Shown: one piece after another, positions 5,556-42,636 of the stretch | How the letters are laid out: every line of letters begins with the position of its first letter | Numbering within the stretch: the first letter of the stretch is position 1 | From: Aeromicrobium sp. | GTDB lineage: Bacteria; Actinomycetota; Actinomycetes; Propionibacteriales; Nocardioidaceae | DNA: 49,637 nucleotides | NCBI GenBank assembly: GCA_023257515.1 | Contig: JALRCA010000090.1 | Location: forward strand, 1-49,637 | Reading direction: 5' to 3' | Position numbers and translations under genes: made by a program | Notes under the pieces: model-generated | The model's input: the letters and a program-made list of their open reading frames with translations, nothing else | Database searches by the model: none | What the model was told of the DNA's origin: nothing

Positions 5556-5580
5556 CCACCTCGACGAAGGAGAGCTCCCG

Positions 5581-7543: not shown

Positions 7544-8215
7544 GTGAGCGAGCAGCAGCCGGACGCCGCGATGATCGCCGTCCTCGAGCTCGGCCAGGTC
7601 GATGCCGGGGAGTTCGCCGCGTGGTACGACACCGAGCACCTCCCGGAGCGCCGTTCCGTCCCGGGCATCCTGACGGCGCGCCGCTGGCTGTCGACGTCCG
7701 AGCCGGCGACCTCGGTGGCCTTCTACGACCTCCACGGCCTGGAGACGCTGGAGTCCGCCGACTACCGCGCGATCTCGGGTCCGCACCTCTCGCCGTGGTC
7801 GCGCCGGATCATCGAGGCCAGTGCCGACTTCCGCTACTACGAGGTGCGACGTCTCACCGGTGATCCCCGCCCGTCCGCCGAGGAGGCGACCGGCTTCTAC
7901 GTGGTGGGCATGAACGTCGAGGACTCGTTCGACGCCGAGCTCAACGCCTGGTGGGACGAGGAGCACCTGCCTCGCCTGTCGGCCGTGCCCGGGGTCCTCC
8001 GCGCCCGGCGGTTCGTGGCCGTCGAGGGTCCCCACCGGTACCTGGCGGTCTACGACCTCGCATCGCCCGACGTCGTCGGCTCGCCCCCGTGGATGAGCGC
8101 GGCGGAGACGCCGTGGACGCACCGCGTGCGCCCTCGGACCTCCGACCGGTTCAAGCTCGTCTGCCGTCGGCCGCACCCCCACGCTGCGACGCATGCCCGA
8201 GGAGGCACCCGATGA
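7544..8215 (+). CDS. Duplicated dimeric alpha/beta-barrel protein, function unknown
   Basis: 223 residues made of two related halves of about 100 residues. Each half carries the same pattern: an aromatic Trp-Tyr/Trp-Asp-x-Glu-His-Leu-Pro segment (WYDTEHLPERRSVPG; WWDEEHLPRLSAVPG), a RAR-R-F/W strand and a L-x-x-YDL strand. This is the ferredoxin-like fold of EthD/DUF4286-type proteins. In one polypeptide the two halves could form an intramolecular barrel. The GTG start has an excellent GAGAGGAGAG ribosome site; an in-frame ATG upstream lies inside the operator and is not used. First gene of the catabolic operon. Relatives include small decarboxylase/cyclase-like or heme-handling proteins, but I do not assign a reaction. 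Confidence 0.75.
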   Translation: MSEQQPDAAMIAVLELGQVDAGEFAAWYDTEHLPERRSVPGILTARRWLSTSEPATSVAFYDLHGLETLESADYRAISGPHLSPWSRRIIEASADFRYYEVRRLTGDPRPSAEEATGFYVVGMNVEDSFDAELNAWWDEEHLPRLSAVPGVLRARRFVAVEGPHRYLAVYDLASPDVVGSPPWMSAAETPWTHRVRPRTSDRFKLVCRRPHPHAATHARGGTR

Positions 8216-8814
8216 CGACCCTCTACACCGTCCAGTGCAACGTCGACCGCCCGGATCTCGAGGCGGAGTGGAACGCCTGGTACGACGGTCCCAAGACCGC
8301 CCACATGATGGCCAAGCCCCTGTTCCTGAGGTCGCAGCGCTTCCGCGCCCACGCGTTCGACGTCGACACGGCGTACCTCGCGATGTGGGAGCTGGAGTCG
8401 GCCCAGGCGCTGGAGACACCCGAGTACACCGCCACCTGGGGCTGGGACCGTTGGGCGTCGATGATCACCGACTGGGTCCGTGACCTGAGCGTGGCCGACG
8501 CCGGCGAGCGGGTGCCCTTCGCGCCCGGCACGGACGGCGTGGTCCACGCACACCTCGCTTGGTTCGACTCCCCGGTCGACCCGGCGCGCCGGGCCGAGCT
8601 GACGCGGCGTGGGATCGATGCGTCCGCGTGGTGGTGGGGCTCGTGCGGCGGGCTGGACGACTCCGCGCGAGCGGTCGCGCTGCGGATCCACACGGACGAC
8701 CAGCAGGTGCCGACGCAGCGCGTCTTCGAGGGACTCGCGAGCAAGGAGACCGTCTACCGCTCGATCTCCGCCCTGGCCCACGCGGCCCCGTCCGACGCGG
8801 TGCTCGGCGCATGA
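8212..8814 (+). CDS. Second dimeric alpha/beta-barrel-like protein, function unknown
   Basis: 200 residues overlapping the previous gene by four bases. The N-terminal half resembles each repeat of its neighbour (WNAWYDGPKTAHMMAKPLFLRSQRF, then YLAMWELES), but the Glu-His-Leu-Pro core is replaced by PKTAHMM, so the putative active-site Glu-His pair is not conserved in place. The second half (AHLAWFDSP..., then VALRIHTDD) keeps the strand pattern weakly. I therefore read it as a diverged tandem partner. Together with the preceding gene it supplies four related domains at the head of an acyl-CoA operon. Function is unknown. Confidence 0.7.
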   Translation: MTTLYTVQCNVDRPDLEAEWNAWYDGPKTAHMMAKPLFLRSQRFRAHAFDVDTAYLAMWELESAQALETPEYTATWGWDRWASMITDWVRDLSVADAGERVPFAPGTDGVVHAHLAWFDSPVDPARRAELTRRGIDASAWWWGSCGGLDDSARAVALRIHTDDQQVPTQRVFEGLASKETVYRSISALAHAAPSDAVLGA

Positions 8815-9572
8815 GCGGCCGGCGAGTCGTCGTGACGGGCGGTGGCGGTGGCCTGGGCTCGGCGATCGCGCAGGCTCTGGCGCGCCAGGGCGACGAGGTC
8901 GTGGTGGCGGACCGCGACCTGGCGCGCGCCGAGGAGGTGGCCCGCAGCATCGCCGAGAGCGGGGACCGGGCGGTGGCCGTCCAGGTCGACGTCACCCGGT
9001 CGGACTCCTGGGCCGACCTCGTCCGTGCGGCGGACGACCGCGTCGACGTGCTGGTGAACGCGGCCGGTGTGATCGCGCGCGTCACGCTCGAGACGCTGGA
9101 CGCGCGGAGCTGGTCCGACGTCATGTCCGTCAACGTGCTGGGCGCCTCGCTCGGGATCCAGGCCGTCATCCCCGGGATGAAGGCCGCCGGCGCAGGAGTG
9201 GTCGTGAACATCGGGTCGACGGCTGCCCTGCAGGCGCACTCCGACCCGGTCTACTGCACGAGCAAGTGGGCCCTTCGAGGACTCTCCAAGGCCGCGGCCG
9301 TCGAGCTCGCCCCGTTCGGGATCCGGGTCGGCTGCGTGCACCCGGGACTCGTGCCGACCGAGCTCACCAGCTCCGCCGAGCACTACGTCGCCGCCGCCCT
9401 GCACGCCAGTCCGCTCGGTCGTCTCGCCGACGGTCGGGCGATCGCCGAGGCCGTCAGCTACCTGGCCGGTGCCAGCGCGGTCACGGGGGTCGACCTCGAG
9501 GTCGACGGCGGGTACACGGTCGGCGGCGCGGTCTGGGCGCGCCGGCAGTTCACGCGGGCGCAGGAGGCGTGA
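8811..9572 (+). CDS. SDR-family dehydrogenase (classical)
   Basis: 253 residues, classical short-chain dehydrogenase. The cofactor loop TGGGGGLG (about residues 9-16), the NAAG motif and the catalytic Ser136, Tyr148 and Lys152 (YCTSK) are all in place; DGGYTVGG closes the fold. Asp34 after the second strand (VVADRD) favours NAD over NADP. It overlaps both neighbours by one to four bases, so it is made with the cluster. A likely role is oxidation of a ring or chain hydroxyl on a CoA ester, as BadH does for 2-hydroxycyclohexanecarboxyl-CoA; the substrate is inferred. Confidence 0.87.
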   Translation: MSGRRVVVTGGGGGLGSAIAQALARQGDEVVVADRDLARAEEVARSIAESGDRAVAVQVDVTRSDSWADLVRAADDRVDVLVNAAGVIARVTLETLDARSWSDVMSVNVLGASLGIQAVIPGMKAAGAGVVVNIGSTAALQAHSDPVYCTSKWALRGLSKAAAVELAPFGIRVGCVHPGLVPTELTSSAEHYVAAALHASPLGRLADGRAIAEAVSYLAGASAVTGVDLEVDGGYTVGGAVWARRQFTRAQEA

Positions 9573-10789
9573 TGGCCGAGCGCACAGGACCGTTGGACGG
9601 TGTCCGGGTCGTCGACATGACGACGTCCTACGCGGGACCGACCGCGAGCATGTACCTCGCCGACCTGGGTGCCACCGTGATCAAGGTCGAGCGACCGGGG
9701 CGGGGTGACGACGCGCGGCACTGGGGCCCACCCTTCGACGGCGGCACGTCCGCGTGGTTCGCCTCGGCCAACCGGAACAAGCAGTCCGTCGTGATCGACG
9801 TGCGCGACGAGCTCGGGCGCGAGGCGCTCGGGCGGCTGCTGGACGGAGCCGACGTGTTCCTGCAGAACGTCAACCCCGCCAAGCTCGCCCGGCTCGGCAT
9901 CGACGCCGACACGTTGCGGGCCCGCAACCCGCGCCTGGTCTACTGCGCGCTGTCCGGGTTCGGCCTCGACGGTCCGGACCGCGACCTGGCGGGCTACGAC
10001 CTCGTCGCGCAGGCCCGGTCGGGGCTCATGTCCGTGACCGGCGCGCAGGGCGGCACCCCGCAGCGCGTGTCGACGGCGCTGTCGGACATCGCGTCCGGCA
10101 TGGCCGCGGCGATCGCGATCAGTGCTGCGTTGGTGCGGCAGCGTGACCGGGGAGAGGGAGAGGTCATCGACGTCTCCCTGCTCGAGACCGACCTCGCGCT
10201 CATGGCGCCACGGATCGCGGCGTTCCACGCCGGCGAGGCCCTCCCGGCCCCGAGTGGCGGCACCGACTCGGTGCTCGCGCTCTACCAGTCGTTCGAGACC
10301 GCCGACCGCACGATCGTGGTCGCCGTCGGCAACGACGCCATGTGGCTGAGGTTCTGCGGCGTCGTGGGCCTCGAGGATCTGGCCGCCGACCTCGCCCTGC
10401 GGGACAACGCGGGCCGCCGCGCGCAGCGTCAGCGGATCATCGAGGCCGTCGCCGCGCGTCTGGTCACGCGCACGGCCCGGGAGTGGCTCGACGACCTGGC
10501 CGGCGCCGAGGTGCCGGCGGCACCCGTGCAGACGCTCGCCGACGTCGTGTCCGACCCGCACGTCGTCGCTCGCGGGTCGGTTCTCCCGGTCCCTGGTTCC
10601 GACGGTCGCCTCGTGTCGGTGCGCAGCCCGTTCCGCCTGGCCTCCGTCCCGCCCCGGAACGAGCGCTTCCCGGGCCTGGGTGACGACACGCGGTCGGTCA
10701 TGCTCGACCTCGGGTACGACGGGGACGACCTCGCGCGGCTCACGGCCGGTTCCCCGGCGGCGCCCACGACCGCAGGAGCCGGGTCGTGA
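9572..10789 (+). CDS. Class III (CaiB/BaiF) CoA-transferase
   Basis: 405 residues. Moves CoA between carboxylic acids through an aspartyl-CoA anhydride. The N-terminal GVRVVDMTTSYAGP, the transferase-type segment GYDLVAQARSGLMSVTG and the candidate nucleophile Asp172 in TALSDIASGMAAA are intact. The Gln and Ser-Gly around residues 147-151 are typical of transferases rather than racemases, in contrast to the second family member at 18886. It may activate the free acid, or recycle CoA from the product acid. Start ATG overlaps the SDR stop by one base. Confidence 0.88.
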   Translation: MAERTGPLDGVRVVDMTTSYAGPTASMYLADLGATVIKVERPGRGDDARHWGPPFDGGTSAWFASANRNKQSVVIDVRDELGREALGRLLDGADVFLQNVNPAKLARLGIDADTLRARNPRLVYCALSGFGLDGPDRDLAGYDLVAQARSGLMSVTGAQGGTPQRVSTALSDIASGMAAAIAISAALVRQRDRGEGEVIDVSLLETDLALMAPRIAAFHAGEALPAPSGGTDSVLALYQSFETADRTIVVAVGNDAMWLRFCGVVGLEDLAADLALRDNAGRRAQRQRIIEAVAARLVTRTAREWLDDLAGAEVPAAPVQTLADVVSDPHVVARGSVLPVPGSDGRLVSVRSPFRLASVPPRNERFPGLGDDTRSVMLDLGYDGDDLARLTAGSPAAPTTAGAGS

Positions 10790-11592
10790 CCGCGGTGTCG
10801 ACCCAGGCCTGCGGTGCCGTCCTGCGGGTCACGATCGAGCGGCCGGAGGCCCACAACGCGCTGAACCGCGAGGTCCTCCAGGGCCTGGCGCGGGCGATCG
10901 AGGGCGCCGAGGCCGATCCGGCCGTCCGAGCCGTCGTCCTGACGGGGCGCGGCACCACGGCGTTCAGTGCCGGCGCGGACCTGAAGGAGATCGCGGCCAT
11001 GGGTCCTGACGAGGCCGCGGACGCGATCGCGGCCGGTCAGGCGACCATGGACCGCGTCGCGGCCGCGGACGTCCCCGTGGTGGCTGCCGTCGACGGTCTC
11101 GCCCTGGGCGGTGGGTTCGAGCTGGCGCTCGCGGCGACGTTCACCGTGCTGTCCGAGAGTGCGTCGCTGGGCCTGCCGGAGTCCGGCCTCGGGCTCATCC
11201 CCGGCTACGGGGGCACCCAGCGGCTCCCGCGGGCGATCGGCGCGCGCACGGCCACCTACCTCATGACGACCGGGACGCGACTCGACGCCCGGCGTGCCTA
11301 CGAGCTCGGGTTGTCCCCGGTCGCGCCGGTCCCCTCGGCGCGGCTGGTCGACACGGCCCACGAGATCGCCGACCGGATCGCGGCCCAGGGTCCCCGAGCG
11401 GTCCGTTCGATCCTGCGCGCGGTGCGCGGCGGGGCCGACGGGTCGCTCGCCACAGGGCTCGGTCTCGAGGCCGGGCTCGCCGCCCTGGCCGTCGCCGGTG
11501 CCGAGTCCGCCGAGGGTGTCGAGGCGTTCCTCGCGCGCCGCACGCCGCGATTCGTCGACGGCGCGTCGAACGGCGAGGAGGCGGTGTCATGA
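10786..11592 (+). CDS. Enoyl-CoA hydratase (crotonase family)
   Basis: 268 residues. Adds water to a 2-enoyl-CoA. Both catalytic glutamates are present: the one in LGGGFELAL and the one twenty residues later in LPESGLGLIPG, the same spacing as Glu144/Glu164 of the rat enzyme. The oxyanion loop SAGADLKEI and the GYGGTQRLPR helix are canonical, so true hydratase activity is expected. GTG start, overlapping the CoA-transferase by four bases. In the proposed pathway it would fill the BadK-like step after an acyl-CoA dehydrogenase. Confidence 0.9.
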   Translation: MTAVSTQACGAVLRVTIERPEAHNALNREVLQGLARAIEGAEADPAVRAVVLTGRGTTAFSAGADLKEIAAMGPDEAADAIAAGQATMDRVAAADVPVVAAVDGLALGGGFELALAATFTVLSESASLGLPESGLGLIPGYGGTQRLPRAIGARTATYLMTTGTRLDARRAYELGLSPVAPVPSARLVDTAHEIADRIAAQGPRAVRSILRAVRGGADGSLATGLGLEAGLAALAVAGAESAEGVEAFLARRTPRFVDGASNGEEAVS

Positions 11593-12812
11593 CCGTCGAG
11601 ACGCTCGACCTGGACGTCGACCCCGCCACCTACGTCGCGATCCACGACCGGCTCGACGAGCCGACCGCCGATCTCGCCCTCGACGAGCGGGAGCGTGAGG
11701 TCCGCGCGGTGACCCGCGCCGTGGTGGCGCACGAGGTCGCACCGAGGGCTGCGGCGCTCGACGAGACGGGGACGTTCGCCCACGAGAGCGTCCAGGCGCT
11801 CGCGCGCGCCGGTCTCGGTGGACTGATCTTCCCGACGCACCTGGGTGGCACGAACGACTCGAACGTCGCGTACGCCGTGGCCCTGGAGGAGGTCGCCGCG
11901 GGATGCGCTGCGACGAGTCTCGTCCTCATGACGCAGATGCACGCGGCCTACCCCATCCTCCTGGCGGGAACGTCCGAGCAGCAGCAACGCCACGTCCCCG
12001 GGCTGCTCGACGTCACGCGCTACGGCTCGCTCGCGATCACCGAGCCCGGGGCGGGGTCCGACGTCTCCGGCCTCGCGACGACCGCCACCCCGACCGCGGA
12101 CGGGTGGCGGCTGAGCGGCCAGAAGACCTTCATCACCTCGGGGGACCGCGCCGACGTGATCATCTGCTTCGCCACGACGGACCGCACGCGTGGCCGCGAC
12201 GGCGTCACGGCCTTCATCCTCGAGGGGGACTGGCGCGGGGTCGTGCACGGGCAGCCCTTCGTCAAGCTGGGCATGCACGGCTCCACCACGGCCGAGCTGT
12301 TCCTCGACGGCGTCGAGGTGCCGCGCAGCCACCTGCTCGGGGACGAGGGCCAGGGCTGGCGCGTCGTCATGGGCTCGGTCGTCAAGTCGCGCATCAGCGC
12401 GGCCGCCCAGGGCGTCGGTCTCGCGCGGGCCGCCTACGCACGGACGCTGGCGGTGCTGGACCGGCTCCACGACGGCCGCTGGCCCGCCGAGGCCGCCTTC
12501 GCACTGGCCGGTCTCCGCAGCCGGATCCTGCAGGCGCGTCTGCTCCTGCACGCGACCGCCCGGCTCGCCGATGCGGACCCGGGCCCGAGTGCCGGCCAGG
12601 TCGCCCTGATGAAGCAGGCGTGCACGGACCTCGGGTTCGAGGTGGCGGTGGAGGCCGCCCGGATCCTCGGTCCGTACGGCGACCTCGCCGCCCTCGGCGT
12701 CGAGCGCTGCCTGCGCGACGCCAAGGTGACGCAGATCTACGACGGCACCAACGAGGTGCAGCGACTCCTGGTGGGTCGTGAGACGACTCGCAGCTGGAAG
12801 GACCAGGCATGA
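11589..12812 (+). CDS. Acyl-CoA dehydrogenase
   Basis: 407 residues with all three ACAD domains: helical N-terminus, beta domain with ITEPGAGSDVSG and GQKTFITSGD (FAD contacts), and C-terminal helices ending VTQIYDGTNEVQR. In most family members the base is the Glu of YEGT; here that position is Asp385 (YDGT). Asp is known in this slot in some members but is the minority choice, so rate or substrate range may differ. It introduces the alpha,beta double bond and passes electrons to ETF; no etf genes are in the window. Four-base overlaps on both sides. Confidence 0.88.
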   Translation: MTVETLDLDVDPATYVAIHDRLDEPTADLALDEREREVRAVTRAVVAHEVAPRAAALDETGTFAHESVQALARAGLGGLIFPTHLGGTNDSNVAYAVALEEVAAGCAATSLVLMTQMHAAYPILLAGTSEQQQRHVPGLLDVTRYGSLAITEPGAGSDVSGLATTATPTADGWRLSGQKTFITSGDRADVIICFATTDRTRGRDGVTAFILEGDWRGVVHGQPFVKLGMHGSTTAELFLDGVEVPRSHLLGDEGQGWRVVMGSVVKSRISAAAQGVGLARAAYARTLAVLDRLHDGRWPAEAAFALAGLRSRILQARLLLHATARLADADPGPSAGQVALMKQACTDLGFEVAVEAARILGPYGDLAALGVERCLRDAKVTQIYDGTNEVQRLLVGRETTRSWKDQA

Positions 12813-13570
12813 GCGTGGAGAGGACCCTCGAGGGCCGGGTGGCGATCGTCACCGGCGCCGGACGCGGTCTCGGCAGGAGCATGGCGACCGCGCTGAGCGC
12901 GGCGGGCGCCGCCGTCAGCGTGGCGGCGCGCAGCGCCGACGAGCTCGACTCCTTCGTCGCCGACACGACGGCGGCCGGAGGACGCGCCCTCGCGTGTCCG
13001 ACCGACGTCACGGACGAGGACGCGGTCGAGCACCTCGTGGCCTCCACGCTGGAGCACTTCGGCCGGGTCGACGTCCTGGTGAACAACTCGGGCATCGTCG
13101 CGACGACACCGCTCCTGGAGCAGTCTGCCGACGAGTGGGACCGGGTCGTCGCCACGAACCTGCGGGGGACCTACCTCGCGACGCGCGCCGTGGGGCGCCA
13201 CTTGGTCGGACAGGGCTCGGGGAAGGTCGTCAACATCGCGTCGAACTTCGCGCTCAAGGGCGTGTCGCACCACGCGGCGTACTCGGCGTCCAAGGCCGGT
13301 GTCATCGCCTTCACGCGTTCGATGGCCGTCGAGTGGGCGCGCCACGGCGTCCAGGTCAACGCGATCGCGCCCGGCTACTTCGCGACCCCCCTGAACGCCG
13401 AGCTCCGCGAGGACGAGGCGACGGTGGAGCGGGTCGTCCGTGCGATCCCGGCGCGGCGCATGGGCGAGGCAGCCGAGCTCGCTCCGTGGATCGTGCTCCT
13501 GGCCGGCAGCGCGTCGGACTTCATGACCGGCGAGGTCGTCGTGATCGACGGGGGGCAGAGCGTCCGATGA
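12809..13570 (+). CDS. SDR-family dehydrogenase (FabG/BadH-like)
   Basis: 253 residues. Cofactor loop TGAGRGLG (15-22), NNSG motif (92-95), catalytic Ser145, Tyr158 and Lys162 (YSASK) and the C-terminal DGGQ are all intact. Arg41 after the second strand (VAARSADE) suggests NADP, unlike the first SDR of the cluster. It lies between an acyl-CoA dehydrogenase and hydroxyacyl-CoA dehydrogenases, with four-base overlaps. It probably oxidises a beta-hydroxyacyl-CoA or cyclic alcohol. BadH-type, FabG-type and 3-oxoacyl reductase roles cannot be separated from sequence alone. Confidence 0.87.
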   Translation: MSVERTLEGRVAIVTGAGRGLGRSMATALSAAGAAVSVAARSADELDSFVADTTAAGGRALACPTDVTDEDAVEHLVASTLEHFGRVDVLVNNSGIVATTPLLEQSADEWDRVVATNLRGTYLATRAVGRHLVGQGSGKVVNIASNFALKGVSHHAAYSASKAGVIAFTRSMAVEWARHGVQVNAIAPGYFATPLNAELREDEATVERVVRAIPARRMGEAAELAPWIVLLAGSASDFMTGEVVVIDGGQSVR

Positions 13571-14478
13571 GTACTCCCACGACCGGACCCGACGGGCTGG
13601 AAGGGCGCGACCCCCGCACGGTCGCCGTCCTCGGCGCCGGGACCATGGGCTCGGGGATCGCCGTCGTGATGGCGCGCGCCCTGCACCGCACGATCCTGTT
13701 CGACGTCGACGAGGCGAACCTGCAGCGGGGCCTGGACACCGTCCACGGCTTCTTCGACAAGAGCGTGGAGCGCGGCAAGCTGACGGCGCCGCTCGCGGCG
13801 GCGGCGAAGGCGTCGCTCGTGGGGACGACCGACCTGGCCGACCTGGCGGCCAGCGACGTCGTGGTCGAGGCCGTCTACGAGGACCTCGCCCTGAAGAAGG
13901 AGCTGTTCGGGGCGCTGGACGACCTCGTGCCGGACACGACGCTGTTCCACACGAACACCTCGACGCTGTCGGTCACCGGCATCGCCTCGGGGTCGCGGCT
14001 TCCCGAGCGCGTGGTGGGCACCCACTACTGCAACCCCGCGCCTCTCATGAAGCTCGTCGAGGTGGCCGACGGACGGCACACGGCGTCGTGGGCCAGGGCC
14101 GCGACCATCGACTTCCTCGAGTCCCTCGGCAAGACCACCGTCGTCACGAAGGACCGGCCGGGCTTCATCGTGAACCGCTTCCTCATCCCGTGGGAGAACT
14201 CGTGCATCCGCGCGCTGGAGTCCGGGCTCGGCACGAAGGAGTCGATCGACGCCGCCGTCCTCGGTGCCCTCGGCCACCCGATGGGTCCGTTCAGGCTGCT
14301 CGACATCGTCGGGATGGACATCCACCAGCAGGTCGCCACACGCCTGTACGAGCAGCTGCGCGACCCCCGGTTCTTCCCCCCGCCGATGGTCGAGCGGATG
14401 GTCGCCGCGGGCGACCTGGGCCGCAAGACCGGACGCGGATTCTACGACTACGACGACACCCGCCTGTTCGGGTCGTGA
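13567..14478 (+). CDS. 3-hydroxyacyl-CoA dehydrogenase (first of three)
   Basis: 303 residues of the HAD/L-gulonate dehydrogenase type. The Rossmann motif VLGAGTMGSGIA is followed by the active-site segment GTHYCNPAPLMKLVEV, where the catalytic His is kept but the usual FFNP is YCNP. The remaining motifs are KDRPGFIVNR and a C-terminal GRKTGRGFYDY. It oxidises (S)-3-hydroxyacyl-CoA with NAD. It overlaps the SDR stop by four bases; eleven bases follow before the next paralogue. The altered FF pair suggests a different acyl pocket from its two paralogues. Confidence 0.88.
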   Translation: MSTPTTGPDGLEGRDPRTVAVLGAGTMGSGIAVVMARALHRTILFDVDEANLQRGLDTVHGFFDKSVERGKLTAPLAAAAKASLVGTTDLADLAASDVVVEAVYEDLALKKELFGALDDLVPDTTLFHTNTSTLSVTGIASGSRLPERVVGTHYCNPAPLMKLVEVADGRHTASWARAATIDFLESLGKTTVVTKDRPGFIVNRFLIPWENSCIRALESGLGTKESIDAAVLGALGHPMGPFRLLDIVGMDIHQQVATRLYEQLRDPRFFPPPMVERMVAAGDLGRKTGRGFYDYDDTRLFGS

Positions 14479-14488
14479 GGAGACGACG

Positions 14489-15409
14489 ATGACCACGACG
14501 ACCACCGAGCTGCGGCACGTCGGTGTCCTCGGCCTGGGCACGATGGGCGCCGGGATCGCCCAGGTGCTGGCGGCCTCGGGACGCGACGTCACCGTCCTGG
14601 AGCAGGACGGCGCGCGCATCGCCGCAGGACGCGCGCGGCTGGAGGCCTCGTTGGACCGCGACGTCGCGCGGGGCCGCACCACCGAGGCCGAGCGCGCGGC
14701 CGTCCTCGAGCGGGTGTGGTGCACGTCGAGCCTCGTGGACCTCGCCCCCGTCGACCTCGTCGTGGAGTCGGTGTCGGAGGACCTCGCGGTCAAGCGTGCC
14801 GTGCTGGACCGGGTCGCCGCCACGGTCGCCCCCGACGTGCCGATCGTCACCAACACGTCCGCCCTGTCCGTGACCGAGCTCGCGACCGGGCTGCCCGGTC
14901 CGGAGCGGTTCGCAGGCCTGCACTTCTTCAACCCGGCGCCGGCGATGCGGACGGTCGAGGTCGTGCCCGGGCTGCGGACGACGCCCGAGCTGGTCGAGCG
15001 TCTGGTCGCCCTCGTCGAGTCCTTGGCCGACAAGATCGCCGTCGTCGTGAAGGACCGTCCGGGGTTCCTGGTCAACTCCCTGCTCCTGCCCTACCTCAAC
15101 GACGTGGTGCAGGAGCTCGACGACGACCTGGCGACGGCCGAGGACATCGACGTCGCCCTGCAGCTGGGTCTGGGCTACCGCACAGGCCCCCTCGCGATGC
15201 TCGACCTGATCGGGCTCGACGTGCACCTCCAGGCGACGACCGCGCTCCACGCGGCCACCGCCGACCCTCGGTACGCGCCGCCGCCGTTGCTGCGCCAGAT
15301 GGTGGCCGACGGCCGCCTCGGCGACAAGTCCGGTGACGGCTTCCGCACCCATCCGTCCCCCGCGGCCTCGCCGCGACCCGTCTCGCCCCACGACAGGAGT
15401 CCGGCATGA
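14489..15409 (+). CDS. 3-hydroxyacyl-CoA dehydrogenase (second of three)
   Basis: 306 residues. VLGLGTMGAGIAQ Rossmann loop, GLHFFNPAPAMRTVEVV with the catalytic His, VVKDRPGFLVNSLLLPYLNDVV and C-terminal GDKSGDGF. It is closer to the 3-hydroxybutyryl-CoA dehydrogenase pattern than its predecessor. It carries an extra Pro/Ser-rich tail of about 20 residues after the domain. The start follows a gaggagacgacg ribosome site. Its stop overlaps the next start by four bases. Several HADs in tandem would be needed if the pathway includes more than one hydroxyacyl intermediate. Confidence 0.88.
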   Translation: MTTTTTELRHVGVLGLGTMGAGIAQVLAASGRDVTVLEQDGARIAAGRARLEASLDRDVARGRTTEAERAAVLERVWCTSSLVDLAPVDLVVESVSEDLAVKRAVLDRVAATVAPDVPIVTNTSALSVTELATGLPGPERFAGLHFFNPAPAMRTVEVVPGLRTTPELVERLVALVESLADKIAVVVKDRPGFLVNSLLLPYLNDVVQELDDDLATAEDIDVALQLGLGYRTGPLAMLDLIGLDVHLQATTALHAATADPRYAPPPLLRQMVADGRLGDKSGDGFRTHPSPAASPRPVSPHDRSPA

Positions 15410-18889: not shown

Positions 18890-20022
18890 CGCCGCCGCTG
18901 CAGGGCGTCAGGGTCCTGGACCTCTCGACGTTGCTCCCCGGGCCCCTGGCGACCCTGTTCCTGGCGCAGTCCGGCGCGGACGTCGTCAAGATCGAGCGTC
19001 CGGTCCAGGGCGACGAGATGCGCAGCTACCACCCCCGGCTCGGCGAGGCCAGCGCCAACTACGCCGTGCTGAACCGCGGCAAGCGGGCCTACGCCGCCGA
19101 CCTCAAGGATCCGTCGCAACGGGACCGCGTCCTGGAGATCGCGGCCGAGGCGGACGTCGTGGTCGAGCAGTTCCGGCCCGGGGTCGCCGACCGACTGGGC
19201 CTGGGCTACGACGTCGTCGCACGGCTCAACCCGCGCGTCGTCTACTGCTCGGTCAACGGCTACGGCTCGACGGGTCCGTCCGCCGGGCGCGCCGGCCACG
19301 ACCTGAACTACCTCGCCGAGTCGGGCCTGCTCGGCGTCGTGGTCGACCGTGACGGGGCCCCGAGCCTGCCCGTCAGCGTGCTCGCGGACATCGCCGGCGG
19401 GACCTACCCCGCGGTCGTCAACATCCTGCTCGCCCTCCGGCAGGCCGAGGCCACGGGCCGTGGCTGCCGGGTCGAGGTGGCCATGGCCCGCAACCTGCAG
19501 GTCCTGGCCTACGGCTACTTCGCGACCCACCAGGTCGACGGGACGTGGCCCGAGCCAGGCGCCGAGCTGCTCACCGGAGGCAGCCCCCGGTACCAGGTCT
19601 ACCCGACCGCCGACGGCCGGCACGTCGCCTGCGCGGCACTCGAGGACAGGTTCTGGCGACGGCTCACCGAGCTCGTCGGTCTCGACGAGAGATGGCGGGC
19701 CGACGCCGGGCAGGAGGACGCGGTGATCGCGGCCCTCGGCGAGGTCTTCGCCTCCCGCACGGCTGCCCACTGGCGCCGCGTGCTGACCGGAGAGGACGTC
19801 TGCACGAGCGTCGTCGCGACCTGGGACGAGGCGGTCGACTCCGGCCTCGTCGAGGTCGACGGCCCGGACCGCGTCCGCGACCCCGGGCCGTCGGGTCGCG
19901 CCGTCGCGACGCTCCCGAGCCCCGTGTCGCCGCAGCTGCGACGTGCACCGGGGACCTCCTCCTACCCCGCCCTCCACGCCCTCCCCGACGGCTCGCCCTG
20001 GGCCGCCTCCACCCCGCGATAA
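18886..20022 (+). CDS. Alpha-methylacyl-CoA racemase-like CaiB/BaiF protein
   Basis: 378 residues. Same superfamily as the transferase at 9572, but the catalytic region differs. It has GHDLNYLAESGLLG with His138, and Asp168 in VLADIAGG, thirty residues apart, as are the His126/Asp156 catalytic pair of Mycobacterium MCR. This pattern marks alpha-methylacyl-CoA racemases, which interconvert 2R and 2S epimers so that stereospecific dehydrogenases can act. That fits a substrate with a stereocentre at C2, for example a ring carboxylic acid or 2-methyl acid. Transferase activity remains possible. GTG start, overlapping the ligase by four bases. Confidence 0.78.
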   Translation: MTPPLQGVRVLDLSTLLPGPLATLFLAQSGADVVKIERPVQGDEMRSYHPRLGEASANYAVLNRGKRAYAADLKDPSQRDRVLEIAAEADVVVEQFRPGVADRLGLGYDVVARLNPRVVYCSVNGYGSTGPSAGRAGHDLNYLAESGLLGVVVDRDGAPSLPVSVLADIAGGTYPAVVNILLALRQAEATGRGCRVEVAMARNLQVLAYGYFATHQVDGTWPEPGAELLTGGSPRYQVYPTADGRHVACAALEDRFWRRLTELVGLDERWRADAGQEDAVIAALGEVFASRTAAHWRRVLTGEDVCTSVVATWDEAVDSGLVEVDGPDRVRDPGPSGRAVATLPSPVSPQLRRAPGTSSYPALHALPDGSPWAASTPR

Positions 20023-20032
20023 GGAGCCACGC

Positions 20033-21019
20033 ATGCGTGCAGTACTCGTCGAGGACTTCGGTCCTCCGTCCAGCCTGGTCGTCAAGGACGTGCCCGACCT
20101 CGTGCCGCAGGCGGGCGAGGTCCTCGTGGAGGTCGCGGCGGCGAGCGTGAACTTCCCCGACATCCTGGTCGTCGACGGGACCTACCAGAACCTCCCACCG
20201 CGACCGTTCAGCCCAGGCAAGGAGGTGGCGGGACGCGTCGCAGCGGTCGGCGCGGGCGTCGAGCGCCTGGTCGTGGGCCAGCGCGTGTTCGCGCTCGTGG
20301 AGCACGGTGGCTACGCGGAGCAGGTCGTGGTGCCCGAGGAGCTCGTGGTCGAGCTGCCCGACGAGGTCGACGACGTGCAGGCGGCCGCGGCCGGCCTGGT
20401 GTACGCGACGGCCCACCTGGGGCTGCGGCGTCGTGGCCGACTGCTGCCGGGGGAGACCGTCCTGGTCACCGGTGCCGGCGGGGGTGTCGGCTCGGCGGGC
20501 GTCCAGCTCGCCAAGGCCTGGGGTGCGCGCGTCATCGCGCTCGCGCAGGACGAGGCGAAGGGTGGGCTGACGCGGCGTCAGGGCGCCGACGTGGTCCTCA
20601 CGTCGACTCCGACGACGCTGCGCGACGACGTGCTCGCCGCCACGGACGGTCGCGGTGTCGACCTGACGCTCGAGATGCTCGGCGGTGACTTCCTGGCGCA
20701 GGTGCTGCGGGCGACCGCCTGGGAGGGCCGCGTCGTGGTCGTCGGCTTCGCGTCCGGCGGTCAGCTGCCGATCAAGCCCGGCCACCTCCTGGTCAAGAAC
20801 ATCGGGGTCCTCGGGCTGCAGAGCAGCGACTACCGCGACCGCGATCCCGGCCTCACCCGCGAGACGATGGCCGAGGTCTTCGGACTCCTGGGCTCGGGTG
20901 CGGTCGACGCGGCGGTCGACACGGTCCTGCCGTTGGAGGACGCCGCGCAGGCGCTGCAGTACGTCAAGGACGGGCGGGTCAAGGGCAAGGTCGTGCTGAC
21001 GACCCGGAGCGCGTCATGA
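20033..21019 (+). CDS. MDR-superfamily NADPH:quinone oxidoreductase-like reductase
   Basis: 328 residues, zinc-free medium-chain reductase. The catalytic-domain part runs through VAAASVNFPDILVVDG and PGKEVAGRVAAVG; the cofactor loop is VLVTGAGGGVGSAGVQLAKAWGARV. No zinc-ligand Cys cluster is seen. Relatives reduce quinones or the double bond of enoyl-type compounds, so an enoyl-CoA reductase role in the pathway is possible. It starts eleven bases after the racemase-like gene behind the ribosome site aaggag and overlaps the next HAD by four bases. Confidence 0.85.
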   Translation: MRAVLVEDFGPPSSLVVKDVPDLVPQAGEVLVEVAAASVNFPDILVVDGTYQNLPPRPFSPGKEVAGRVAAVGAGVERLVVGQRVFALVEHGGYAEQVVVPEELVVELPDEVDDVQAAAAGLVYATAHLGLRRRGRLLPGETVLVTGAGGGVGSAGVQLAKAWGARVIALAQDEAKGGLTRRQGADVVLTSTPTTLRDDVLAATDGRGVDLTLEMLGGDFLAQVLRATAWEGRVVVVGFASGGQLPIKPGHLLVKNIGVLGLQSSDYRDRDPGLTRETMAEVFGLLGSGAVDAAVDTVLPLEDAAQALQYVKDGRVKGKVVLTTRSAS

Positions 21020-21909
21020 GTCGCGAAGGAACCGCCCACGCCGAGGAGCCGACCGTGCTGTGGAGCCACGAGCTGCCTGCCTCGGTCGGCGTGGTCGGCG
21101 GCGGCCGGATGGGCGCGGGCATCGCCCACGCCTTCCTCGCCGCGGGTGCTCGCGTCGTCGTGCTCGAGGCCGACGACGAGGCGGCGTCGCACGCCCGGAG
21201 CCGCGTGACGCGGAACGTCGAGCTGGCGCTCGAGCGGGGCGACGAGCCTCGATCCGCCGACGCGGTCCTGGCCGCGTTCACCACCGCCACCGACGTGCGG
21301 TCCCTGGCCGACGTCGGACTCGTCGTCGAGGCCGTCCCGGAGTCGCACGACCTGAAGGTCGAGGTCTTGAGGCGGGTCGAGGGCGTCGCCCCCGGTGCGG
21401 TGCTCGCGACCAACACGAGCTCGCTCTCGGTCGACGCCATCGCCGCGAGGCTGACGCGTCCGGAGCGCGTGGTCGGGCTGCACTTCTTCAACCCGGTGCC
21501 GGCCAGCCGGCTGGTCGAGGTCGTCGTCGGGACGGCGACGCCACCGGACCTGGCCGAGGCGGCCGGGCAGTGGGTGGCTGCTCTCGGGAAGACGGCGATC
21601 ACCGTGACGGACTCGCCCGGGTTCGCCAGCAGCAGGCTCGGCCTCGCGCTGGCCCTGGAGGCGATGCGCATGGTCGAGGCGGGTGTCGCGACGGCCGCGG
21701 ACATCGACCTCGCGATGACGCTGGGCTACAAGCACCACCTGGGACCGTTGCGGACCACTGATCTCGTCGGGCTGGACGTCCGCCTGGCCATCGCCGACCA
21801 CCTCGCCCGAGAGGTCGGGGAGCGGTTCGCGCCGCCGCAGGTGCTGCGCGACAAGGTCGCGGCCGGCGAGCTCGGCCGCAAGACCGGACAGGGGTTCTAC
21901 ACATGGTGA
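21016..21909 (+). CDS. 3-hydroxyacyl-CoA dehydrogenase (third of three)
   Basis: 297 residues. Rossmann loop VVGGGRMGAGIAHA, in which the usual T-M-G is R-M-G; catalytic His in GLHFFNPVPASRLVEVV; TDSPGFASSRLGLALALEAMRM; and GYKHHLGPLRTTDLVGLDVRL with C-terminal GRKTGQGFYTW. The last half is closest to 3-hydroxybutyryl-CoA dehydrogenase. It carries an 18-residue N-terminal extension ahead of the fold. It overlaps the MDR gene by four bases and the glutamate dehydrogenase by seven, so it is translated as part of the same message. Confidence 0.87.
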   Translation: MSREGTAHAEEPTVLWSHELPASVGVVGGGRMGAGIAHAFLAAGARVVVLEADDEAASHARSRVTRNVELALERGDEPRSADAVLAAFTTATDVRSLADVGLVVEAVPESHDLKVEVLRRVEGVAPGAVLATNTSSLSVDAIAARLTRPERVVGLHFFNPVPASRLVEVVVGTATPPDLAEAAGQWVAALGKTAITVTDSPGFASSRLGLALALEAMRMVEAGVATAADIDLAMTLGYKHHLGPLRTTDLVGLDVRLAIADHLAREVGERFAPPQVLRDKVAAGELGRKTGQGFYTW

Positions 21910-23183
21910 CGATCGAGCCCGAGCTGGCGCCGGCCCCCACGCCGCGCCCCCTGGACGATGCCCGTGCGCAGCTGCGCGACGCGGTCGAGCGGCTCGGGCA
22001 CGACGAGAGCGTCTACGCCATGTTGTCAGTCGCCCGCCGGGAGCTCTCGGTGAGCATCCCGCTGCGGCGCGACGACGGCCGTGTCGAGGTGCTGACGGGC
22101 CACCGGGTGCAGCACAACCTCTCGCGCGGTCCCGGCAAGGGCGGCCTGCGGTTCAGCCCCGACGTGGGGATCGACGAGGTGCGGGCGCTCGCGATGTGGA
22201 TGACCTGGAAGTGTGCGCTGCTCGACGTGCCCTACGGCGGCGCGAAGGGCGGGATCACGATCGACCCGCGGGCGTACTCCCAGGCCGAGCTCGAGCGCGT
22301 GACGCGTCGCTACACGAGCGAGGTCTCGCAGCTGATCGGCCCTGACGTCGACATCATGGCGCCTGACGTCGGCACGGACGAGCGCACCATGGCCTGGATG
22401 ATGGACACGTACTCCGTGGGTCGCGGCAGCACCGTCCTGGGCGTCGTCACCGGCAAGCCCGTGGCGCTGGGCGGGTCCCTCGGTCGGGCCATGGCGACCT
22501 CGCGCGGTGTCGCCTACGTCTCGCTGCTGGCCCTGGAGCGACGGGGGATCCGGGCATCGGGCGCGACGGCCGCGGTGCAGGGGTTCGGCAAGGTCGGCCG
22601 CGGCGCCGCCCGTCTGCTGCACGACGCCGGTGTCCGTGTCGTCGCCGTGAGCGACGCCGACGGTGTCGTCCACCGTGCGGACGGCATCGACGTCCCGGAC
22701 CTGGAGCGCCACGTCGACCGGACCGGCTCGGTCTCCGGGTTCGCGGGGGCCGACCCCCTGCCGGGGCAGCGCGAGCTCCTGACGCTCGACGTCGACCTGC
22801 TGGTCCCGGCCGCCGTCGAGGCGGTCGTCACCGAGGACAACGCTCGTGACGTCCGGGCGCGGATCCTCGTCGAGGGCGCGAACGGGCCGCTCACGACCGT
22901 GGCGGACGCGATCCTGCAGGACGCGGGATGCCTGGTGGTGCCGGACATCCTGGCGAACGCCGGTGGTGTCGTCGTGAGCTACTTCGAGTGGGTCCAGGCG
23001 AACCAGGCGTACTGGTGGAGCGTCGACGAGGTCGAGAGCCGTCTGGACGCGCGGATGCAGGTGGCCTGGGACCGTGTGTGGGACCGGGCCCAGCGGGACG
23101 GGCAGTCCCTGCGGAGCGCCGCCATGACCCTGGCGGTCAAGACCGTCGCCGACGCGCACCGGCTCCGGGGGTTGTACCCGTGA
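21903..23183 (+). CDS. Glutamate dehydrogenase (Glu/Leu/Phe/Val family)
   Basis: 426 residues, the length of the hexameric NAD-type enzyme. It interconverts glutamate and 2-oxoglutarate plus ammonia. GPGKGGLRFSP holds Lys79, MTWKCALLDVP holds Lys103, and PYGGAKGGI holds the catalytic Lys115. The cofactor domain has VQGFGKVGRGAARLL. The MTWK and PYGGAKGG forms favour glutamate over leucine or phenylalanine. It overlaps the HAD by seven bases and MerR by four, an odd place for a housekeeping enzyme. It may process nitrogen released from the pathway substrate or rebalance NAD(H). Confidence 0.87.
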   Translation: MVTIEPELAPAPTPRPLDDARAQLRDAVERLGHDESVYAMLSVARRELSVSIPLRRDDGRVEVLTGHRVQHNLSRGPGKGGLRFSPDVGIDEVRALAMWMTWKCALLDVPYGGAKGGITIDPRAYSQAELERVTRRYTSEVSQLIGPDVDIMAPDVGTDERTMAWMMDTYSVGRGSTVLGVVTGKPVALGGSLGRAMATSRGVAYVSLLALERRGIRASGATAAVQGFGKVGRGAARLLHDAGVRVVAVSDADGVVHRADGIDVPDLERHVDRTGSVSGFAGADPLPGQRELLTLDVDLLVPAAVEAVVTEDNARDVRARILVEGANGPLTTVADAILQDAGCLVVPDILANAGGVVVSYFEWVQANQAYWWSVDEVESRLDARMQVAWDRVWDRAQRDGQSLRSAAMTLAVKTVADAHRLRGLYP

Positions 23184-23557
23184 GGATCGGTGAGGCCTCG
23201 CGCGCGAGCGGCGCGAGCCCGCGGGCGCTGCGGCTGTACGAGGAGGAGGGGCTGATCGTGCCGGGCCGCTGCAGCAACGGCTACCGGGACTACTGCCCGT
23301 CGACCGTCGAGCGGGTGCGCGTCATCCGGCACCTCATGGACGCGGGGGTGCCCGTGCGGTTCCTCAAGCAGGTGCTCCCGATGGTCGTCGGCGAGACCAC
23401 GATGGACCCCGAGGCGATGCAGGAGGTCGCGGCCTACCTGGATCGACTCAGCGGTCGCATCGAGGCGCTCGAGCGCCAGCGGTCCGCGCTGGGCGAGTTC
23501 CTGCTGCAGGTCCAGGTGCGCGAGGTGTTGACCTTGACGCATGCGGCAGGCTCCTAG
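23180..23557 (+). CDS. MerR-family transcriptional regulator
   Basis: 125 residues. N-terminal winged helix (RIGEASRASGASPRALRLYEEEGLIVPGR, then GYRDY) is followed by a dimerising coiled coil (EVAAYLDRLSGRIEALERQRSALGEFL). No cysteine-rich metal site is present, so it is not a heavy-metal sensor; one Cys lies in the wing (YCPS). The GTG start overlaps the glutamate dehydrogenase stop by four bases. Its 3' end carries a promoter-like element for the next gene, the probable target. Confidence 0.85.
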   Translation: MRIGEASRASGASPRALRLYEEEGLIVPGRCSNGYRDYCPSTVERVRVIRHLMDAGVPVRFLKQVLPMVVGETTMDPEAMQEVAAYLDRLSGRIEALERQRSALGEFLLQVQVREVLTLTHAAGS

Positions 23558-23567
23558 CGTCGTCCAC
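23528..23567 (+). promoter_or_regulatory. Leaderless promoter inside the 3' end of merR
   Basis: TTGACC (23528-23533) and TAGCGT (23555-23560) are separated by 21 bases, longer than the usual 17 and similar to the stretched spacers that MerR proteins untwist. TAGCGT is followed by seven bases and the ATG at 23568, the leaderless pattern. The spacer contains only a weak dyad. An alternative -35, TTGACG at 23534, would give a 15-base spacer. Confidence 0.4.
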
Positions 23568-24587
23568 ATGACTGTGACATCGCCTGCACACGCCGTGCCC
23601 GCCACCATCCGAGGACTCGTCCAGCGGACGTCCGCCGGACCGGACGACCTCGAGCTCGTCGAGGACCTGCCGACGCCCGTTCCCGGGCCAGGGGAGTACC
23701 TGGTCAAGGTGGGCGCCGCCGGTCTCAACTTCGCCGACGTCATGCAGACGTACGGCACCTACGCCGGGGGTCCGACCCCGGAGTACGTCGCGGGATTCGA
23801 GGCGGCCGGAGAGATCGTGGCCGTCGGCCCCGACGTGACGGACCCGCTGCCGGTCGGCAGCCACGTCATCGGGGTCGGCCCCGGGGCGTTCGCCCAGTAC
23901 ATGGTCATGCCGGCCGTGGCCGTCGCTCCGGTGCCCCAGGGGTGGAGCGACGCGGCCTCGCTGGGACTCGTGCTGAACTGGGCCACCGCGCTCGCGGCGA
24001 TCAAGCCGCTGGGCGGGCTGGGCGAGGGCGACTGGGTCCTCGTCCACGCCGCGGCGGGTGGTGTCGGCCAGGCCGCGATCCGGCTGGCGAAGCACTACGG
24101 GGCGCACGTGGTCGCGCTCGCGTCGAGCCACAAGCACGACGCGATCGCCGGCCTCGGTGCCGACGTGGTCCTGGACCGCTCGCGCGACGACCTCGCCGAG
24201 GAGATCCTCCGTGTCACCGGAGGTGGCGTCGACCTCGTCCTCGAGTCGATCGGGAAGACCACGTTCGAGCTGAGCCTGGGCGTCGCGAAGCCGTTCCAGG
24301 GTCGCCTCGTGGTCTTCGGGGCGGCCTCGGGCGACGCCTCCGTCGACACCCACCAGCTCGTCTTCGAGCACCGGGTCCAGGTGCAGGGCCTCCACATCGG
24401 GGCGTTCGCCGAGCTGGTGCCCGACCAGTACGCGGAGCTGGTGGCCGAGCTCGACCGGCTCATCGAGGTCGGGGTCCTCGTGCCCGGCACACCGACCGTG
24501 CACGCCTTGACCGACGGCGTGGCGGCCGTCCACCAGCTCGCCTCGGGCACGTCCGTCGGCAAGCTCGCCATCGATCCCTGGGCCTGA
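23568..24587 (+). CDS. MDR-superfamily oxidoreductase (quinone reductase-like)
   Basis: 339 residues, second zinc-free MDR of the cluster. VKVGAAGLNFADVMQTYG and VAGFEAAGEIVAVGPDV form the catalytic domain; WVLVHAAAGGVGQAAIRLAKHYGAHVVALAS is the NADPH fold. It was probably recruited as an enoyl-type reductase. The ATG at 23568 is chosen over an upstream in-frame ATG because the upstream one lies in merR coding sequence, and a TAGCGT hexamer sits exactly seven bases ahead. Its expression may be tied to the adjacent MerR protein rather than to the upstream operon. Confidence 0.85.
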   Translation: MTVTSPAHAVPATIRGLVQRTSAGPDDLELVEDLPTPVPGPGEYLVKVGAAGLNFADVMQTYGTYAGGPTPEYVAGFEAAGEIVAVGPDVTDPLPVGSHVIGVGPGAFAQYMVMPAVAVAPVPQGWSDAASLGLVLNWATALAAIKPLGGLGEGDWVLVHAAAGGVGQAAIRLAKHYGAHVVALASSHKHDAIAGLGADVVLDRSRDDLAEEILRVTGGGVDLVLESIGKTTFELSLGVAKPFQGRLVVFGAASGDASVDTHQLVFEHRVQVQGLHIGAFAELVPDQYAELVAELDRLIEVGVLVPGTPTVHALTDGVAAVHQLASGTSVGKLAIDPWA

Positions 24588-24595
24588 CCGCACCG

Positions 24596-25324
24596 ATGGA
24601 TCTGCGACTCGCCGGGGCCCGCTGCCTCGTGACCGGCGGCAGCGGGCTCGTCGGCGGCGCCGTGGCCGCCTCGCTGGTCCGAGAAGGCGCTCGTGTCGTC
24701 CTGCTCGGCCGGACCCCCGGCCGCCTGGAGCACGTCGCGGCGACGATCGGCGCCGCCGGCACGGTCGTGGCGGACACGACCGACGACGTCGCGGTCGGGA
24801 CGGCGGTCGATCAGGTGGTGCAGCAGCTCGGAGGACTGGACGTGCTCGTGAACTGCGCGGCCACGCCGGCGTCGTCGACACCGGCGCGCCGGATCGACGA
24901 CGTGGACGCCGGGGCGTTGCTCGTGAACGTCGACACCAAGGTCGTCGGCTACCTGCGGGTCGCACGAGCGGCGGCCCCGTTCCTCGCCCGAGGCGGCGGG
25001 GCCCTCGTGAACGTCAGCGGCACCAACGCCCGCAGGACCGGCGACGTCGTGGGATCGATCCGCAACAGCGCGGTCGTCGCGCTCAGCAAGAACCTGGCCG
25101 ACGAGCTCGGGCCGAGCGGCGTCGCCGTGACGTGCGTGCACCCGGGTCCGATCACGACCGCCGCCGCGGTCGAGCGCGCCGCCCCGGCCGGCTCCCTGCA
25201 CCCTCAGGTCGCGCTCCAGGACGTGGCGGACCTCGTGGTGTTCCTGTGCTCGCCGCGCGGACGAGCCACGAGTGGGTCCGTGGTCGCGGCAGACGGCGGG
25301 CAGCCGGGCGTCATCTGGGCGTGA
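24596..25324 (+). CDS. SDR-fold protein lacking the catalytic Tyr and Lys
   Basis: 242 residues with a good Rossmann half (VTGGSGLVGGAVAASLVREGARVVLLGR; LVNCAATP) and the C-terminal cap (HPGPITT, DGGQPG). The Ser motif VNVSGTNARR is kept, but where YxxxK should follow the sequence is VGSIRNSAVVALSKNL: by alignment of the AVVALSK helix, Tyr becomes Gly or Ile and Lys becomes Asn. Ordinary hydride-transfer chemistry is therefore doubtful. It starts eight bases after the MDR stop. It could act as a binding or regulatory subunit, or use another proton donor. Last gene of the cluster, tail to tail with tetR. Confidence 0.78.
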   Translation: MDLRLAGARCLVTGGSGLVGGAVAASLVREGARVVLLGRTPGRLEHVAATIGAAGTVVADTTDDVAVGTAVDQVVQQLGGLDVLVNCAATPASSTPARRIDDVDAGALLVNVDTKVVGYLRVARAAAPFLARGGGALVNVSGTNARRTGDVVGSIRNSAVVALSKNLADELGPSGVAVTCVHPGPITTAAAVERAAPAGSLHPQVALQDVADLVVFLCSPRGRATSGSVVAADGGQPGVIWA

Positions 25325-26012: not shown

Positions 26013-26039
26013 CGGTCTCGCCCCTTTCCTCGATCGCGA

Positions 26040-26125
26040 TTCTACGCCATTCACACATTGGACGCCGCTCTCGAAGAGAACGGTGTACATTAAGAGAACA
26101 CTGTGCATTCATTCTACACCGTTCA
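26040..26125. promoter_or_regulatory. Repeated operator between tetR and the MFS pump
   Basis: An AT-rich patch in a GC-rich window. GAACGGTGTA (26078-26087) and TACACCGTTC (26115-26124) are an exact inverted pair. AGAGAACGGTGTACATT (26075-26091) is repeated with three mismatches as AGAGAACACTGTGCATT (26093-26109), 18 bases apart. TTCTACGCCATTCA (26040-26053) resembles TTCTACACCGTTCA (26113-26126). Four related half-sites between divergent promoters are what a cooperatively binding TetR repressor uses. Confidence 0.6.
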
Positions 26126-39834: not shown

Positions 39835-39871
39835 ACGAGTGCCCGACCCCGCTGCGGGGTCGGGCACTCGT
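39835..39871. terminator. Bidirectional terminator, 17-base perfect stem
   Basis: ACGAGTGCCCGACCCCG (39835-39851) pairs without mismatch to 39855-39871 across a CTG loop. It separates the convergent CsbD and histidine kinase genes and can end transcription from both sides. The last base of the stem is the final base of the kinase stop codon. Confidence 0.8.
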
Positions 39872-42570: not shown

Positions 42571-42636
42571 GGCCCGTCCTTCCGCGGCCCGAGTGCTCCG
42601 TGTGGTGATCGTCTCACGCGGGCCGCTCACGCGCCC

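Follow-up and report, generated by a model that had tools for sequence, protein, structure and literature searches.

What is broken down by a run of 19 genes that encodes a CoA ligase, a CoA-transferase, a racemase-type protein, a hydratase, a glutamate dehydrogenase (GDH) and a crotonase of the BadI/MenB type, and does this crotonase open a ring? The run occupies positions 7544-25324, entirely on the plus strand, of a window of 49,637 nucleotides, by which we mean the whole stretch of DNA that was analysed (contig JALRCA010000090.1 of assembly GCA_023257515.1). The host, an Aeromicrobium sp., has a genome of 3.54 Mb in 288 contigs that is 87.7% complete. The operon also encodes two acyl-CoA dehydrogenase (ACAD)-like proteins, three 3-hydroxyacyl-CoA dehydrogenases (HADs) and three short-chain dehydrogenases/reductases (SDRs). 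Our data point toward an operon, probably inducible, for the breakdown of a cyclic carboxylic acid by CoA-dependent β-oxidation with hydrolytic ring opening, a reading to which we give about an even chance of being right. Its central protein, the crotonase g10, forms a third clade that is neither BadI nor MenB. The genes, numbered in their order, are as follows.

g1, 7544-8215, plus strand: barrel-like accessory protein, DUF4286/EthD-like (DUF4286 E 0.0049, below cut-off); relatives in nine other loci
g2, 8212-8814, plus strand: barrel-like accessory protein (DUF4286 E 0.0071, below cut-off); one relative, 42% (L106)
g3, 8811-9572, plus strand: SDR, accessory
g4, 9569-10789, plus strand: family III CoA-transferase (CoA_transf_3), core
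g5, 10786-11592, plus strand: enoyl-CoA hydratase (ECH), core
g6, 11589-12812, plus strand: ACAD with the motif IYDGTNE, Asp at the usual catalytic-Glu position, core
g7, 12809-13570, plus strand: SDR, core
g8, 13567-14478, plus strand: HAD (3HCDH), core, highly conserved
g9, 14489-15409, plus strand: HAD (3HCDH), core in Actinobacteria
g10, 15406-16182, plus strand: BadI/MenB-type crotonase (ECH_1), third clade, proposed ring-opening hydrolase
g11, 16179-17228, plus strand: ACAD-like, weak ACAD matches (N and C domains), lacks the usual catalytic-base motif, may be a partner of g6
g12, 17225-18889, plus strand: acyl-CoA ligase (AMP-binding); best model cyclohexanecarboxylate-CoA ligase, below cut-off
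g13, 18886-20022, plus strand: α-methylacyl-CoA-racemase-type protein, CaiB family (CoA_transf_3)
g14, 20033-21019, plus strand: medium-chain dehydrogenase/reductase (MDR), quinone oxidoreductase type
g15, 21016-21909, plus strand: HAD (3HCDH)
g16, 21906-23183, plus strand: GDH, accessory; ATG at 21903
g17, 23180-23557, plus strand: MerR-type regulator, accessory
g18, 23541-24587, plus strand: second MDR, accessory; alternative start 23574
g19, 24596-25324, plus strand: SDR, accessory

With the starts chosen, the genes overlap by 4 bases at 14 of the 18 junctions and by 17 bases at one, and at the other three they are 8-10 bases apart; all 19 genes have a third-position GC of 0.91-0.96. The original prediction, made from the DNA alone, had described a tightly overlapped run of these enzyme classes, and coordinates, domains and junctions agree with it; all the classes that it listed are present, and g14, g17, g18 and the second ACAD-like gene have to be added to its inventory.

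The argument starts with g10. Against the NCBIfam models it scores 252.7 for PRK07396 (cut-off 380), 236.9 for menB TIGR01929 (cut-off 342.7) and 226.3 for badI TIGR03210 (cut-off 467.6), and a further member of its family (L172) is likewise rejected by the BadI model (219.0) and by the MenB models. Reference proteins pass: a plasmid BadI (L186) reaches 480.7 with TIGR03210, and an Aeromicrobium MenB (L013) reaches 394.8 with TIGR01929 and 457.3 with PRK07396. In a tree of 61 rows (59 from the 163 extracted sequences, plus g10 and g5 of the window), MenB (17 rows, 100/100), BadI (6 rows, 99/98) and the g10 family (34 rows, 100/100, stem 1.19) are all separate, and g10 branches inside neither of the other two clades. 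The family joins nearest to BadI, weakly (88/56) and with a very long branch as outgroup. Among the six BadI rows, L186 alone was scored against the cut-off; five rows are annotated as badI and one (L189) is not. Other matches of the g10 search, from 25 genomes at 41-45% identity plus a second one in G037, were taken as MenB by their C termini, except that of G058; six of these matches were put in the tree, where five fell in MenB and G058 outside.

The residues of g10 are consistent with this placement. We aligned 97 g10-family rows, made up of the window protein and 96 further sequences (90 of them distinct) of at least 47% identity, and found Phe61, Val110, Arg127, Gly130, Ser135, Asp137 and Asn161 invariant in all of them. 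In the hydratase g5, the places of Val110 and Gly130 are taken by two glutamates, which we take to be the catalytic pair of hydratases, and g10 is therefore not expected to be a hydratase. The counterparts of Ser135 and Asp137 are also present in 8/8 BadI-type rows (six from the BadI clade, and L182 and L183, which the tree places outside that clade) and in 9/9 MenB rows; in MenB these two residues and a C-terminal Tyr are presumably catalytic. The retained Ser/Asp pair and the missing glutamates would fit a C-C chemistry of the MenB/BadI type. With MenB, g10 shares the fold and the G-S-x-D motif, and all 50 Foldseek matches listed for its structure model (mean predicted local distance difference test score, pLDDT, 75) are MenB structures. 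It differs in having Phe61, Asp90, Arg127 and Asn161 in place of Ala, Arg, Gly and Cys. At position 90, 93 of the 97 family rows have Asp and four have Glu, against Arg in every BadI-type and MenB row; position 233 is Leu in 90 rows, the window protein included, Tyr in five and Arg in two. On this alignment, Phe61, Arg127 and Leu233 set g10 apart from BadI and MenB. The change of Arg90 to Asp, together with Arg127 in the same stretch as Ser135/Asp137, suggests that the substrate differs from plain cyclohexanecarboxylate, perhaps by an additional carboxyl group. The counterpart of the neighbouring Gln128 presumably lies at the bicarbonate site of MenB. The model has pLDDT values below 50 at residues 131-142, and Arg127 is therefore not placeable against Ser135/Asp137. 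All four Rokubacteria members (L130-L133) keep the C-terminal Tyr and the two placed in the tree branch first in the g10 family, which suggests that the Tyr was lost later within the family.

The second line of evidence is the recurrence of the gene set. Contigs were scanned with five g10-family members, and we compared the best 80 of 270 loci, found with two peptide patterns of the g10 family; the conservation counts are therefore biased towards g10. Thresholds for the presence of each gene were fixed after the gene-order comparison had been seen, those for SDRs and ligases are at superfamily level, several contigs are incomplete, and some loci are redundant (L099 and L101 come from one assembly with the same matches, L112 and L120 from one metagenome-assembled genome, L096 from G037 and L100 from G004). 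Mycolicibacterium (L089) and Rhodococcus (L090) keep the order g4 to g15, with identities of 53-84%, and Nocardia (L095) keeps it except for g14, and hence the gene set is not a product of chance. In Actinobacteria, the order g4 to g11 recurs with variations, often followed by g12-g13-g14 and g15; the 43 actinobacterial loci contain g4 in 39, g5 in 41, g6 in 40, g7 in 39, g8 in 41, g9 in 40 and g11 in 36 cases, and the later genes g12, g13, g14 and g15 in 26, 24, 19 and 12. The 37 non-actinobacterial loci have g12 (28), g6 and g8 (25 each), g7 (24), g13 (20) and g4, g5 and g14 (15 each), and none of them has g9, g11 or g15 at the thresholds used. Copies on proteobacterial plasmids are usually arranged as CoA-transferase, g10, ligase, hydratase, SDR, ACAD, HAD, short HAD, CaiB and MDR, adjoined by a sigma-54 regulator; some copies differ in arrangement. 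On a Streptomyces anthocyanicus plasmid (L175, 24745-25341), a hypothetical protein is tagged OXA-42-like by PLSDB, possibly a doubtful automatic call.

The partner enzymes are consistent with acyl-CoA chemistry. g4 is best matched by the succinate-glutarate CoA-transferase model NF052585 (307 bits, below the cut-off of 750), and its nearest solved relatives are formyl-CoA and succinate-hydroxymethylglutarate CoA-transferases. The Asp of g6, at what we take to be the usual catalytic-Glu site of ACADs, is found in 36 of 41 copies of at least 55% identity, the pattern not being found in the other five; the ACADs of non-actinobacterial cluster 6 have Glu there in 37/38. In g11, ACAD matches lie mainly in the C-terminal domain and the catalytic-base motif is absent; we infer that g6 and g11 may form a heteromeric dehydrogenase. 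For g13, the best solved relatives are racemases (192.9 bits, versus 164.8 for the best transferase), and in the alignment with the racemase 2g04 the GHD motif, Asp and Glu, presumably the catalytic residues, are all matched. g13 thus resembles the α-methylacyl-CoA racemases MCR/FAR in its best PDB match and active-site residues, and the predicted activity is of that type. A racemase-type gene next to enzymes of CoA-dependent β-oxidation fits the alicyclic or branched acid named in the original prediction. The L-carnitine models score far below cut-off, so that a carnitine route is unsupported.

In our model, the acid would be converted to its CoA thioester by the ligase g12 and/or the CoA-transferase g4, and g13 would epimerise the α carbon. 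g6, perhaps with g11, would then introduce the 1-ene, g5 would hydrate it, and an SDR or HAD (g7-g9) would oxidise the 2-hydroxyl group to a cyclic β-ketoacyl-CoA. g10 would add water and open the ring in a retro-Dieckmann reaction, as BadI does, to give an ω-carboxy-acyl-CoA, the breakdown of which may be completed by the remaining HAD, the MDR and general β-oxidation.

However, several observations weigh against this model. g10, g12 and g6 miss the cut-offs of BadI, MenB, AliA and AliB; Tyr stands at position 233 in 9/9 MenB and in 6/8 BadI-type rows (the six of the BadI clade), where the g10 family mostly has Leu; and Asn161 is not exclusive to the family, as one BadI-type row has it. Rokubacteria loci contain few or no other core genes, G804 (L198) encodes g10 at 51% without g4 or g8 nearby, and some relatives adjoin aromatic-ring genes. 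In the order sample (n = 293), g8 and g10 each occur in four genomes, three of them shared; G502 has g8 without g10 and G457 g10 without g8. In the class sample (n = 296), with different E-value limits, g10 occurs in five and g8 in four genomes, four of them shared. The G502 operon (L196, G502:C1:520000-539900), in a one-contig genome of the same bacterial family as the host, has g4-g9 and g11-g15 at 56-85% identity with g11 directly after g9; the nearest match to g10 there reaches 40% over residues 65-256. After g15 come a PRK07327-type crotonase and, by eye, a transporter-like frame. Either this crotonase replaces g10 in G502 or the operon serves another substrate.

The G502 operon speaks for an unlikely alternative, namely, that the core degrades an acyclic α-branched acid or diacid and that g10 is a linear C-C hydrolase or a thioesterase rather than a ring opener. 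The racemase-type g13, the dicarboxylate CoA-transferase model nearest to g4 and the three HADs would all suit such a substrate. However, a linear β-ketoacyl-CoA is normally split by thiolase, and therefore a MenB/BadI-type hydrolase would be unneeded; furthermore, five of the six genomes found through g8 alone also have g10.

A more far-reaching version of the ring-opening model is rather doubtful: a pathway for carboxyl-substituted alicyclic acids across several phyla, in which g10 would be a third branch, with a function of its own beside BadI and MenB, and would recognise a second carboxylate of the substrate through the Arg90-to-Asp and Gly127-to-Arg changes. The carboxyl-rich alicyclic molecules of dissolved organic matter belong to this chemical class. 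Hints to a carboxyl-substituted substrate are the model nearest to g4, the tripartite ATP-independent periplasmic (TRAP) or tripartite tricarboxylate transporter genes that adjoin several proteobacterial copies (L139, L173, L178, L179 and L180), and the seawater origin of the L179 host.

It is improbable that the core serves as the lower part of the degradation of a polycyclic compound (steroid, diterpenoid or tetralin-like), with peripheral oxygenases opening one ring and the module the other. In L099, a BphC/HsaC-like extradiol dioxygenase, an HsaA-like oxygenase and a flavin reductase lie beside the core, and L104 has the same genes by clustering; the pair g6 and g11 resembles the paired dehydrogenases of steroid routes. 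The estrogen edc cluster contains a BadI-like gene (PMC7793797). The domain assignments reveal no P450, dioxygenase or thiolase among the 19 operon genes, which leaves an edc-type route unsupported; the dioxygenase and HsaA-like clusters are each represented in four loci, and the peripheral genes vary by host.

Slightly less probable again is that the operon is the known aerobic bad-ali (chcpca) route for cyclohexane- or cyclopentanecarboxylate (AliA, AliB, BadK, BadH, BadI) in actinobacterial dress. The likeness is evident: CoA ligase, ACAD, hydratase, SDR and a BadI-superfamily gene stand together, the opening of a cyclic β-ketoacyl-CoA by water is the model chemistry, and TIGR03208, cyclohexanecarboxylate-CoA ligase, is the best model of g12 (401.6, cut-off 792.3). 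In Rhodococcus BCP1, PMC5906575 describes a badI-badH-aliA-gcdH-aliB cluster induced on cyclohexane- and cyclopentanecarboxylate, and bad-ali clusters are called widespread in PMC9795900. Identities are 43-45% between g10 and BadI, 34% between g7 and BadH and 38% between g12 and AliA, and only 28% between g6 and AliB, whose model TIGR03207 gives g6 94.1 (cut-off 575.35). The genes do not form adjacent badH/badI/aliB/aliA orthologues, the gene order is unlike, g10 has its own clade, and the operon adds CoA-transferases, a racemase type, HADs, an MDR and g11. Furthermore, an annotated badI and a g10-family member lie on one plasmid record in each of three hosts: Cupriavidus basilensis, Cupriavidus sp. 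P-10 and Paraburkholderia fungorum (NZ_CP062805.1, NZ_AP025173.1 and NZ_CP099646.1). Hence, by its sequences, the module is separate from bad-ali, and widespread. Haematobacter has an SDR gene, badI, aliB and aliA in a row, and the actinobacterium L182 (G434) has a bad/ali-like set of four genes (badI 56%, aliB 49%, badH 51% and aliA 42% to Haematobacter), although its BadI-like protein, at 308.6, is below cut-off and outside the BadI clade, so that the set is an imperfect BadI reference; among 296 genomes of the phylum, none gave a BadI above the cut-off. We therefore reject bad-ali as the identity of the operon and keep it as model chemistry.

Another system, the thn operon of naphthalene degradation (ThnO, ThnP, ThnT), is by its description in PMC11659651 similar in using a CoA-transferase and ACADs on a carboxylated cyclohexane-carboxyl-CoA; there, ThnP is a family I transferase and the route is anaerobic, whereas the Pfam model matched by g4 and g13 is that of family III.

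The original prediction thus held in setting the operon apart from the known ali/bad set, to which g13 and the HADs are genuine additions, and in calling it undescribed, as we found no description of the gene set in the open-licence literature (subscription papers lay outside this scope). Its assignment of g10 stands at the level of the superfamily and not as BadI itself, and in the tree that it had proposed g10 lies outside MenB, a place inside which it had named as refuting. Two further extras that it had stressed, the barrel proteins and GDH, look like accessories.

Finally, that g10 is a MenB paralogue serving menaquinone is hardly credible: PRK07396 and TIGR01929 outscore TIGR03210 for g10, but it lies below their cut-offs and outside the MenB clade, no men gene was recognised among the 19 operon genes, and a MenB-like fragment of its own is encoded elsewhere in the genome (178 bits, covering half of the profile). 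The genus seems to carry two MenB types, as this fragment (G000:C3, L053) ends in FPWYY and many relatives (L013-L037) in FPRRx/FPKRx.

The accessory genes differ between lineages. g1, g2, g3, g16, g17, g18 and g19 have no match of at least 45% identity over 60% of the length in the 80 loci, and therefore should not define the pathway; by this distribution GDH, MerR, the second MDR, the barrels, g3 and g19 look like accessories of this lineage. GDH has a single homologue among the loci searched (L170, 32%), so that a nitrogen-containing substrate is at most hinted at. Neither g1 nor g2 has a Pfam match at 0.001; at E of 1 or below DUF4286 is best for both (17.5 and 17.0, cut-off 25.8), with EthD at 15.9 (cut-off 22) for g1 only, and their designation as barrel proteins is plausible and unproven. 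Other loci have other accessories: ETF and a different GDH in Streptomyces NBC_01727, a DUF4286 protein, a type II dehydroquinase and SDRs in Cupriavidus, and lactonase- and α/β-hydrolase-like genes in L112, L117 and L136.

The flanks of the operon contain the following features.

GntR-FCD regulator, 6451-7137, minus strand: divergent, upstream of g1
Inverted pair AGTGTTGAACAATC (7359-7372) and GATTGTTCAACACT (7494-7507), 7359-7507, no strand: perfect, 14 nt, candidate operator region upstream of g1
TetR gene, 25338-26108, minus strand: downstream of g19, followed by an MFS transporter

The arms of the inverted pair are 121 nt apart and have no match elsewhere in the window. With up to two mismatches, TGTTGAACAATC occurs three times in the window, always in the 7359-7507 region (0.30 expected; 0/100 shuffles reach three). 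Among the searched loci numbered L039 or above, only L167 and L188 contain the ten-base core TGTTGAACAA, each of them a single time. A single run of biotin carboxylase, PxpA-type and 5-oxoprolinase/urea-amidolyase-type genes, a PxpABC-like set (2363-6447), lies upstream of the divergent GntR gene, and glutamate from it would suit the GDH of the operon. Farther away, the window encodes a Bestrophin-family protein (35120-36019) and, on the minus strand (39871-42630), a hybrid sensor kinase of 919 residues with PAS, HisKA, HATPase, receiver and Hpt domains.

In sum, we hold with moderate confidence that the operon is a variant of CoA-dependent alicyclic-acid degradation. The module is found in Actinobacteria, Alpha-, Beta- and Gammaproteobacteria and Myxococcota, sometimes on plasmids, and the g10 enzyme also in Rokubacteria; its genes are annotated as generic β-oxidation genes and nothing more. 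To our knowledge, the genes for aerobic degradation of naphthenic and carboxyl-rich alicyclic acids are poorly known. If g10 does open an alicyclic ring, Phe61 together with Arg127 in the BadI/MenB superfamily would be a marker for degraders of alicyclic acids in genomes and metagenomes, and the module would offer a testable route for the breakdown of naphthenic and carboxyl-rich alicyclic acids.

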